In this document: in pieces, positions 25,374 through 27,857 of the stretch
Numbering within the stretch: position 1 is the first letter of the stretch
How the letters are laid out: every line of letters begins with the position of its first letter
Origin: Kribbia dieselivorans NBRC 106261
Lineage (GTDB): Bacteria; Actinomycetota; Actinomycetes; Actinomycetales; Dermatophilaceae
Direction: 5' to 3'
Assembly (NCBI RefSeq): GCF_001552435.1
Contig: NZ_BCRE01000070.1
Location: 1 to 44,367 of the forward strand
DNA length: 44,367 nt
Notes under the pieces: model-generated
Database searches by the model: none
Seen by the model: only the letters and a program-made list of their open reading frames with translations
What the model was told of the DNA's origin: nothing
Position numbers and translations under genes: made by a program

Positions 25374-26642
25374 ATGCTCATGCGACGCTCTCTGCTCCAC
25401 CTCACTGGTGCGGCCGGTCTGGCCGCACTCATGACACCGGCCATGACGGCGTGCTCGACGAGGCCGGCCGAGGCGGGTGAGGTGACGTCCTCGGTCGACC
25501 GGCGGCCACGGCGCTCCGGCAATGAGCCGACCGTGCTGGCACCGTTCGCGCTGCGACTGTTCGATCGCGTCCAACCAGACGCCGCCAATCGGGTGATCTC
25601 GCCGTTCTCCGTGGCGGTTGCGTTGGCCATGACCCGCAACGGTGCCGCCGGTTCGACGGCCACCGAGATGGACACCGTGCTCGGCGCCCCGATCGAGACA
25701 CTCAACGACGAACTCAACACGACGCTGCAGGCGCTGACGGCGATCAACGACTCCGACGCCGACGTGCAGGTCAACGTCGCCAACTCGGTGTGGGGCCAGG
25801 CCGGAGTCCCGTGGGAACAGCCGTTCCTCGATGCCCTCGCGGCGAACTACGGCACCGGGATGCGGACCGTCGACTTCGACGCGGACCCGAACAGTGTCGT
25901 CGACGTCATCAACGCCTGGGTCAGCGACGAGACGAACGACCTCATCCCGGATCTGTTGTCCCCCGATCTGATCGACCATCTGACGCGCGTGGTGCTCGTC
26001 AACGCCGTGTACCTCAAGGGCGGCTGGAAGGCTCCATTCTCCGAGGCCCTGACGACCACGAAGCCATTCACGACGGCCACGGGTGAACGTGTCTCCGCGG
26101 ACATGATGTCCGATCTGCAACAACATACGCACTGGCATGCGACCGCCGGTTGGAAGGCCAGCGCCCTCGACTTGATTCACCCCGACCTGGCGCTGGCCCT
26201 GGTGTTGCCGACGGCACCGGATGAACCCTCACTGTCCCGGCTTCTCGGGGATGACGGCCTCGATCGGATCTTCGATGACCGCACCCGCGCCAATGTCCAA
26301 CTGACCCTGCCGAAGTGGAAGATGCGCCTGAAGGCCGACCTCAAGGCGACGCTCAGCGAACTGGGCATGCCCACGGCCTTCGACCCCAACCGCGCAGATC
26401 TCTCGGGCATGACGACCCGGGAGAAGTTGTTCATCAAGGCCGTCGCCCATGAGGCGGTCGTCACCGTCGACGAGACCGGTATCGAGGCCGCGGCGGCGAC
26501 AGGCGTCGTCGGCGGGGTCACGTCGGCGCCACAAGTCGAACACCAGCTCACCCTCGACCGGCCGTTCTTCTACGTGCTCACCCACGTGCCGACCCGCACG
26601 CCCCTGTTCGTCGGTCGCGTCGGGGATCCAACGGCCGGCTGA
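25374..26642 (+). CDS. Serpin-family protease inhibitor, predicted lipoprotein
   Basis: The 422-aa protein is a bacterial serpin. An Arg-containing signal peptide ends in a lipobox-like AMTAC, so the mature protein should be anchored outside the cell with Cys27 at its N-terminus. Serpin landmarks are VISPFSVAVALAM, LVNAVYLKGGWKAPF and AVVTVDETGIEAAAATG, the last being a hinge typical of inhibitory members. The reactive loop continues VVGGVTSAPQ. The scissile bond probably lies within VTSAP, without a basic P1, so an elastase- or subtilisin-like target is more likely than a trypsin-like one. The ATG at 25374 has GAAGGA upstream; ATG two codons later is possible. Confidence 0.92.
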   Translation: MLMRRSLLHLTGAAGLAALMTPAMTACSTRPAEAGEVTSSVDRRPRRSGNEPTVLAPFALRLFDRVQPDAANRVISPFSVAVALAMTRNGAAGSTATEMDTVLGAPIETLNDELNTTLQALTAINDSDADVQVNVANSVWGQAGVPWEQPFLDALAANYGTGMRTVDFDADPNSVVDVINAWVSDETNDLIPDLLSPDLIDHLTRVVLVNAVYLKGGWKAPFSEALTTTKPFTTATGERVSADMMSDLQQHTHWHATAGWKASALDLIHPDLALALVLPTAPDEPSLSRLLGDDGLDRIFDDRTRANVQLTLPKWKMRLKADLKATLSELGMPTAFDPNRADLSGMTTREKLFIKAVAHEAVVTVDETGIEAAAATGVVGGVTSAPQVEHQLTLDRPFFYVLTHVPTRTPLFVGRVGDPTAG

Positions 26643-26651
26643 CCCGTTCGA

Positions 26652-27197
26652 TCAGGCGGCGTGCTCGGGGCAGTCGACACGCAGGGTCAGCGGGGTCAGG
26701 TCGACCTGCATCAGCGCACACCGCCCGGCTCCCGGCCCCGGTTCATGGTGCAGGCAGGTCGCACACGAGCGGTCGACGGTGAGCAGCCCGTGACGCCACA
26801 GCCCACGAATGACCGCCAACGCCGAGACGAGCGCCTCGTCACCGGCCTCCGCGGCGGCCTCGGCAAAGGGCGCCAGGCTCTCGGCGATGGCCCGGGCCAA
26901 CTCCGCTCCGGCAGGCGTGAGGACGAAGGCCCGGGTACGACGATCCGGTCCGGCCACCTGCTCGACGAGGCCCTTGCCCATCAGGGCACGGGCAGCGTCG
27001 GACACCGTCGGCGCGGAGACCGCGAACTCCACGGCCAGTTCCGAACCGAGCACCGGTGTCGGCACGCTCGCGAGGTGACGCACGATCTCGACCTGGAGCA
27101 CCGACATCCCATGCCGGGTTGCCACGGACTGCACCAGCGCCCGCCGGGCCGAGGCGATGCGTTCCAACGCCGCGACCAACCGTTCTCCTTGGTTCAC
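26652..27197 (-). CDS. MarR-family regulator with a C-terminal Cys/His motif
   Basis: The 181-aa regulator has a MarR winged helix (about 30-105: MSVLQVEIVRHLASVP, FAVSAPTVSDAARALMGKGL, then the wing PDRRTRAFVLTPAG). Its C-terminal extension has Cys145, Cys148, Cys160 and Cys176 plus His150, His151 and His179 (CATCLHH...RCALM...DCPEH). The spacing suggests a bound metal or Fe-S cluster; this is inference. GTG at 27197 follows TACGAT by 6 nt, so the mRNA is probably leaderless. It is divergent from the protoglobin gene, and the shared region holds two operator copies, so it likely controls both genes. Confidence 0.88.
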   Translation of the reverse strand: MNQGERLVAALERIASARRALVQSVATRHGMSVLQVEIVRHLASVPTPVLGSELAVEFAVSAPTVSDAARALMGKGLVEQVAGPDRRTRAFVLTPAGAELARAIAESLAPFAEAAAEAGDEALVSALAVIRGLWRHGLLTVDRSCATCLHHEPGPGAGRCALMQVDLTPLTLRVDCPEHAA

Positions 27198-27213
27198 TCG
27201 ACCATCGTACCCA

Positions 27214-27243
27214 TTGACAAGGACTCCTAAGCATCCCTACGGT
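27214..27243 (+). promoter_or_regulatory. Promoter of the protoglobin gene
   Basis: A perfect -35 TTGACA (27214-27219), an 18-bp spacer and TACGGT (27238-27243) form a good sigma-A promoter with a start near 27250. The left operator copy lies in the spacer. On the other strand, TACGAT (27209-27204) sits 6 nt before the MarR-family GTG start. Confidence 0.75.
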
Positions 27244-27265
27244 GAGACTACGCTTAGGAGTCCTT
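27219..27265. promoter_or_regulatory. Two inverted operator copies between the MarR-family and protoglobin genes
   Basis: AAGGACTCCTAAGC (27219-27232) and its exact reverse complement (27252-27265) lie 19 bp apart. Each contains the 9-bp palindrome AGGA-C/G-TCCT, so each may bind one regulator dimer. The left copy fills the -35/-10 spacer of the protoglobin promoter and sits upstream of the MarR-family -10. The right copy follows the predicted start and adjoins the ribosome-binding site. Occupancy of both should block transcription in both directions. Confidence 0.78.
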
Positions 27266-27275
27266 AGGAGATGCC

Positions 27276-27857
27276 ATGACCCAGGTACCCGGATACTCGT
27301 ACGGCTCGCCCGAGAACACGACCAGCCCTGTGAGCCTGACCGACCTCGACCAACTCAAGGCCACCCTGTTGTGGTCCGACGACGATGAACGATGGCGCCG
27401 CCGAGCAGGCGAACTGCTTACCCCACAGGCCGAGGACATCCTCGACGTCTGGTACGGCTTCGTCGGATCGAGCCCGCACCTCGTGTCGACCTTCTCCGGG
27501 GCCGATGGCCAGCCCGACGGCGACTACCTCGCCGCGGTTCGGCGGCGGTTCGCGCTCTGGATCCACGACACGTGTTCGCGTGACCTCGACCAGGCGTGGC
27601 TCGACCAGCAGCACGAGATCGCCCTGCGCCACACCGCGGCGAAGAAGAGCGCCACGGACGGCGTCAACTCCACCTCGGCCGAGGTGCCCCTGCGTTATCT
27701 CGTGGCCTTCATCGTGCCCCTCACCGTCACGGTCGAACCCTTCCTGAGCAGCAAAGCCGGCCCCGACGACGACGTCGCCGCGATGATGACCGCCTGGTTC
27801 AAGGCGATCACCCTCACGGCGACGCTGTGGTCGCAGCCCTATGCCGACGGCTGGTGA
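27276..27857 (+). CDS. Protoglobin-family heme protein
   Basis: The 193-aa protein matches protoglobins: one-domain globins with an N-terminal extension that bind O2, CO or NO through heme. Support comes from VSLTDLDQLKATLLWSDDD, a mid-protein LDVWYGFVGSSPHLV and EIALRHTAAKKS. The last carries the likely proximal His of the EIGLRHHRTKK-type motif. A conserved-looking C-terminal helix follows (PLRYLVAFIVPLTVTVEPFL). No sensor or output domain is attached. AGGAG lies 5 nt before the ATG at 27276. Its promoter region carries two operators shared with the divergent MarR-family gene, which suggests a gas- or redox-responsive unit. Confidence 0.87.
   Translation: MTQVPGYSYGSPENTTSPVSLTDLDQLKATLLWSDDDERWRRRAGELLTPQAEDILDVWYGFVGSSPHLVSTFSGADGQPDGDYLAAVRRRFALWIHDTCSRDLDQAWLDQQHEIALRHTAAKKSATDGVNSTSAEVPLRYLVAFIVPLTVTVEPFLSSKAGPDDDVAAMMTAWFKAITLTATLWSQPYADGW

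Follow-up and report, generated by a model that had tools for sequence, protein, structure and literature searches.

A MarR-family regulator with a conserved four-cysteine tail and its own operator accompanies protoglobin genes in six phyla

We analysed a 44,367-nt stretch of the Kribbia dieselivorans NBRC 106261 genome (contig NZ_BCRE01000070.1; hereafter, the window), which carries a MarR-family regulator gene divergent from a protoglobin gene. Comparison of this locus with its relatives establishes, at the sequence level, a MarR fold, an invariant tail of four cysteines (Cys4), a conserved operator overlapping the protoglobin promoter, linkage to the globin and what appears to be a single target. 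The reading that we consider probable is that of a self-repressing MarR switch, in which a metal site in the Cys4 tail would sense nitric oxide (NO), reactive nitrogen species (RNS) or a redox change and release the protoglobin promoter. Repression is deduced here from the position of the operator, and we infer the metal, the signal, for which NO or RNS is favoured, and a scavenging role of the globin; the cofactor and the signal are drawn by analogy with the regulators ArnR and NsrR.

The regulator-protoglobin pair and its distribution

The leftward MarR gene and the rightward protoglobin gene are separated by a 78-bp intergenic gap. The features of the locus are:

26652-27197, minus strand: predicted MarR-family repressor gene, 181 aa, GTG start (open reading frame, PF12802, Foldseek); autoregulation proposed
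26661-26765, minus strand: C-terminal Cys4 tail, C145-x2-C148-x11-C160-x15-C176-P-E-H179; candidate metal or Fe-S sensor
26907-27113, minus strand: winged-helix DNA-binding domain, about residues 29-97 (Pfam match; AlphaFold2 pLDDT >90 over most of it)
27214-27219, plus strand: putative -35 element of the protoglobin promoter, TTGACA (consensus match only)
27219-27232, no strand: AAGGACTCCTAAGC, arm 1 of a perfect 14-bp inverted pair; predicted operator 1, core AGGACTCCT at 27220-27228, in the -35/-10 spacer of the protoglobin promoter, with the conserved motif TAnTTAGGANTCCTAAnTA
27238-27243, plus strand: candidate -10 element, TACGGT; weak, 18-nt spacer, under the scanner threshold
27252-27265, no strand: GCTTAGGAGTCCTT, arm 2 of the inverted pair; predicted operator 2, core AGGAGTCCT at 27256-27264, covering the predicted transcription start and adjoining the ribosome-binding site
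27266-27270, plus strand: ribosome-binding site of the protoglobin gene, AGGAG (from sequence)
27276-27857, plus strand: single-domain protoglobin gene, 193 aa (PF11563; M. acetivorans alignment; invariant columns)

On its other side, the MarR gene is adjoined by a serpin gene (PF00079, E=1.5e-90; window 25374-26642), which has a putative lipoprotein-like N-terminus and ends 9 bp away.

The globin matches the PF11563 profile (E=1e-26; 94.2 bits vs a cut-off of 25) and aligns over residues 3-190 with the protoglobin of M. acetivorans (2veb; E=1.5e-60), likewise a single-domain protein. The haem pocket is retained, with the proximal His119 (codon 27630-27632) and the distal Trp59, Tyr60 and Phe92 invariant in the alignment and matching their counterparts in 2veb; the window protein differs in being bacterial and coupled to a dedicated regulator. 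The M. acetivorans protoglobin carries out peroxynitrite isomerisation and nitrite reduction (PMC4020757). A search of viral contigs for protoglobin found no relatives. The same genome encodes a second protoglobin-family domain (L003; G000:C43 25029-25325) as part of an open frame of 419 aa that may encode a globin-coupled sensor.

A first class-wide search with the window MarR returned eight clear orthologues in other genomes (37-44% identity), and all four cysteines are invariant in an alignment of seven of these with the window protein (A1). In one genome (G035), the protoglobin gene lies directly upstream of the MarR orthologue and is itself preceded by ATAGGACTCCTATA. A scan of public genomes queried with the protoglobin yielded 80 loci, 35 of which carry a Cys4 MarR near the globin, usually as the adjacent gene; the arrangement varies (either order, or divergent) and the operator is kept. 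These 35 loci span six phyla: Actinomycetota, Chloroflexota, Bacteroidota, Calditrichota, Armatimonadota and Myxococcota. Approached from the regulator, a profile of the tail alone matched in 17 of 297 genomes of the phylum, with one copy each and always in a Cys4 MarR, and for at least 13 of these genomes a protoglobin, once degraded (G320), stands beside the MarR; three lack one altogether, and the tally does not include G551. Within the class, neither gene is present in most genomes, and many protoglobins occur without a Cys4 MarR.

MarR and protoglobin distances are correlated (Mantel r=0.75; best of 5000 permutations, 0.20), a value to which kinship of the organisms contributes. On the protoglobin tree, the association with MarR is patchy, with 13 changes, at least 4 of them on supported branches, and the phylogenetically independent pairs on supported branches, four in favour and none against, are too few for significance in the co-variation test. 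The sequence-only reading had proposed a self-contained MarR-protoglobin module with dedicated operators; this proposal survived the comparison of orthologous pairs and is supported by the invariant cysteines, the conserved operator and the frequent proximity of the two genes, seen from either partner.

Other gene neighbourhoods of protoglobin were also recorded. HxlR-type regulators occur nearby at L088, L099, L106, L108, L111, L117, L153, L154, L156 and L160, mostly where the Cys4 MarR is lacking, and are possibly an alternative protoglobin regulator. In Hymenobacter (L110, L122, L126, L132) and at L079, protoglobin, HTHP, DUF2024 and a secreted protein that has no Pfam match are grouped as in an operon, with the Cys4 MarR after them; at L079 the group also includes a catalase.

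The operator and the protoglobin promoter

The two arms in the gap had been described from the sequence as a perfect 14-bp inverted pair around the -10 of a TTGACA promoter, and the pair was confirmed at those coordinates. The arms are 100% complementary, with 19 nt between them, and constitute the only inverted repeat of at least 10 nt within 27100-27400; they do enclose the -10 candidate, weak as it is. A sigma-70 scan at its threshold reported no promoter in the window locus, and the promoter call therefore rests on TTGACA, on the geometry and on homologous loci whose boxes come close to consensus (L114, L138 and L158 are examples). Seen across loci, each arm is an operator in its own right, which corrects the inverted-pair view, and the 14-bp inverted relation is that of two copies with the same better half-site. 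The pair geometry was also considered as a special looping element and rejected: most orthologues have one operator, and the two-operator spacing varies from 13 to 37 bp.

Nowhere else in the 3.29-Mb genome is there a AGGANTCCT pair. At least two AGGANTCCT per 44-kb window arose in 10 of 100 shuffles, so that the pair alone is not striking, and the evidence beyond chance is, on these sequence comparisons, the conservation at orthologous loci and not the pair count in the window. The shuffles would suit a reading in which an ordinary MarR gene happens to lie beside a globin gene and an accidental repeat; recurrence of both linkage and operator in many phyla refutes it, leaving it a negligible probability. 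Specifically, of the 35 MarR-bearing loci, 21 have an exact AGGANTCCT in the 250 bp before the start of the globin or MarR gene, vs 3 of the 45 without MarR (Fisher p=2e-7), and two of these three are contigs ending shortly past the globin. Slightly altered forms, TTCGGAGTCCGAA and TTAGGAGTACTAA among them, are found at five further MarR-bearing loci; in Kapaibacterium the palindrome is shifted, to TCAGTANTACTGA or a similar sequence, and is present twice. The consensus from 44 sites, TAnTTAGGANTCCTAAnTA, includes positions outside the search core, where T at -9 (0.73) and A at -8 (0.62) are conserved.

Almost every operator is located either between the -35 and -10 elements or 2-21 bp downstream of the -10. 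Activation is known for some MarR proteins, and the regulator could in principle activate the protoglobin gene; given that the operator overlaps the -35/-10 spacer or the start region almost throughout, we regard this as very improbable. The operator position and the self-contained layout instead point to a repressor that also limits itself. A MarR-type dimer would bind the two TTAGGANTCCTAA-type operators, which overlie the core promoter of the protoglobin gene and also stand immediately upstream of the regulator's own divergent gene, and would repress the protoglobin gene and the marR gene alike. A palindromic operator overlapping its own or the adjacent promoter is what the MarR family leads one to look for, and it was found here; the assignment of both repressor and operator is strongly supported. 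In 9 of 15 genomes examined, TAGGANTCCTA occurs exactly once, at the MarR locus, which suggests that the regulator has a single target, close by. For the window genome, a wider regulon was rejected, the only other two WAGGANTCCTW sites being intragenic.

Two further observations concern operator placement: Lentzea (L128) has a second operator directly before a class-I glutamine amidotransferase (GATase) gene, and in Spongiactinospora (L130, L159) an operator precedes protoglobin with no Cys4 MarR in the fetched stretch.

The cysteine tail and its closest counterparts

Up to about residue 140, the window regulator is an ordinary MarR protein. It matches MarR_2 (PF12802; E=4.9e-8, 33.5 bits vs a cut-off of 27), as do 34 of 34 aligned orthologues, and its Foldseek matches are MarR structures (MepR, MarR, ST1710, PefR) with the same fold and DNA-binding domain, which do not cover the Cys4 tail. 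The tail adds about 40 residues, with Cys145/148/160/176 and His150/151/179 present as the sequence-only reading had listed them. The four cysteines are invariant in all 34 orthologues (23-45% identity), making up four of only seven invariant columns, and the C160-C176 spacing is 15 in 33 of them. The idea that His150 and His151 are metal ligands was not supported, since these positions are His in only 13 and 2 of the 34, respectively; position 179 is His in 27 and otherwise Phe or Tyr. AlphaFold2 predicts the MarR core confidently and the tail in part (residues 174-181 below 50, 141-150 about 60). A PDB search returned no relative of the tail and no matched structure extending over it, and the NCBIfam and Pfam matches are HTH families, none of which names it.

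The tail is the natural sensor, since nothing else in the regulator is as constant as its cysteines. It would bind metal, as an Fe-S cluster or as Zn(Cys)4, as cysteine invariance, the precedents ArnR and NsrR and the partner genes together suggest; the four invariant cysteines are compatible with an Fe-S cluster sensor, no more. Small ligands are the usual effectors of most MarR proteins, and the tail might be purely structural, stabilised by zinc, while a small molecule (phenolic or haem) acts in the usual MarR pocket. PefR, a haem-sensing MarR, is among the fold matches, and some orthologues adjoin CMD or toluene-monooxygenase-like genes; the partners, however, share no common catabolic pathway, and four cysteines among seven invariant columns are more readily explained by a functional site than by a scaffold alone, such that we consider this alternative unlikely.

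The nearest precedent for a sensing tail is ArnR of Corynebacterium glutamicum, a wHTH [4Fe-4S] repressor of narKGHJI and hmp that keeps hmp repressed until nitrosylated (PMC12343034). The proposed likeness comprises a winged-helix repressor, a C-terminal Cys-based sensory part, a haem-protein target (hmp) and release of DNA with NO, and ArnR shows that a mechanism of this type exists in actinobacteria. ArnR differs in having three cysteines (179, 193, 223), differently spaced from the C-x2-C-x11-C-x15-C of the window tail, in a C-terminal domain of its own, and in a set of targets, nar and hmp, that is not confined to one neighbouring gene. Because cysteine number and spacing differ, the window regulator is not an ArnR member, and the tail profile search found only the Cys4 MarR family. 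NsrR, an Rrf2-family Fe-S sensor of NO, represses an NO-detoxifying globin; it is alike in the proposed model only and differs in family, cysteine arrangement and operator. The window MarR does not match the Rrf2 profile PF02082, and the Rrf2 gene of this genome lies elsewhere. AdcR/ZitR combine a MarR fold with metal-dependent DNA binding, at metal sites other than a C-terminal Cys4, and their profile matches only the HTH part of the window protein, far under the curated cut-off. CioR of Chromobacterium violaceum, a MarR-type repressor of its own operon with cytochrome bd, an NO-protective haem enzyme (PMC11837568), was discarded as a relative, having no Cys4 tail (a single Cys52 is named) and a different partner and operon.

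Partner genes and the likely signal

Beyond protoglobin, the partners of the Cys4 MarR include cytochrome c'-beta, CMD, diiron monooxygenase, redoxin and MOSC genes. CMD genes lie beside orthologues at L042, L045 and Ensifer L216, toluene-monooxygenase-like diiron hydroxylases at L043 and L044, redoxins at L059, L113, L119, L143 and L216, and glutaredoxin at L124, L129 and L158; the MOSC/YiiM cluster comprises 12 loci, ten with MarR in the fetched stretch, and class-I GATases are also among the neighbours. GATase and MOSC genes were seen near protoglobin as well (L128:4743 and L157:4721; L130 and L159:6972). An Ensifer sp. PDNC004 plasmid (L216, 3940-7482) carries the operator and Cys4 MarR followed by CMD, redoxin, class-I GATase and MOSC, the extra partners found singly beside protoglobin in actinobacteria.

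A CxxC...C...C arrangement can be a zinc site, and under the same repressor layout the tail could bind zinc and work as a thiol/peroxide redox switch, with protoglobin and the redoxin-like partners answering oxidative or electrophile stress, not NO. Redoxin/AhpC-TSA, glutaredoxin, thioredoxin and CMD, together with catalase and HTHP in Hymenobacter, fit thiol/peroxide sensing as well as they fit NO. Against this stand the in vitro chemistry of protoglobin, which is nitrogen-centred too, and the Thermus partner, an NO-binding cytochrome c'-beta; we regard the zinc switch as possible but rather doubtful.

On Thermus pTT27, the same operator and MarR precede a cytochrome that matches PDB 7ead (T. 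thermophilus cytochrome c'-beta; E=1e-94), a member of a family for which NO binding has been proposed as a way of mitigating stress (PMC11928373). On T. oshimai pTHEOS01, a short ORF, MAEIPGHAYGGPKAKEGDC (L217:2422-2516), sits between the TTAGGAATCCTAA operator and the cytochrome P460/c'-beta gene. It scores 47 against protoglobin N-termini (shuffle mean 23; 0 of 2000 shuffles as high) and resembles the remnant of a protoglobin N-terminus, which suggests that the switch stayed the same while one haem protein took the place of another. This apparent swap is the best clue to an NO or reactive nitrogen signal; the redox partners leave the thiol/peroxide reading open.

In the self-repressing switch that we favour, the metal site would react with NO or related reactive nitrogen or redox species, the reaction would weaken DNA binding, and the protoglobin thus made would scavenge or convert the reactive species. 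A more specific version, possible though short of probable, has the Cys4 tail as a hitherto undescribed Fe-S sensory element that makes the MarR a direct NO sensor and, with the near-universal TTAGGANTCCTAA operator, a one-target NO switch across many phyla, the effector being protoglobin or, in Thermus, cytochrome c'-beta.

The searchable literature, mostly without subscription papers, yielded no description of a Cys4-tail MarR or of a MarR-protoglobin pair; what stands out against it is a MarR repressor with this tail in a conserved module, of which an earlier description may exist. Essentially, the combination of MarR, operator and haem gene suggests a self-contained sensor that would turn on a gas- or stress-handling haem protein. 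By appearance, the regulator is an uncharacterised sensor type, its operator predictable from sequence in unrelated phyla and its tail without a solved relative, and from its other partners (cytochrome c'-beta, MOSC, redoxin, GATase, CMD) the outline of a shared stress response emerges. Moreover, with a regulator that is dedicated and portable, and whose operator is defined by sequence, one can ask directly what induces bacterial protoglobins.
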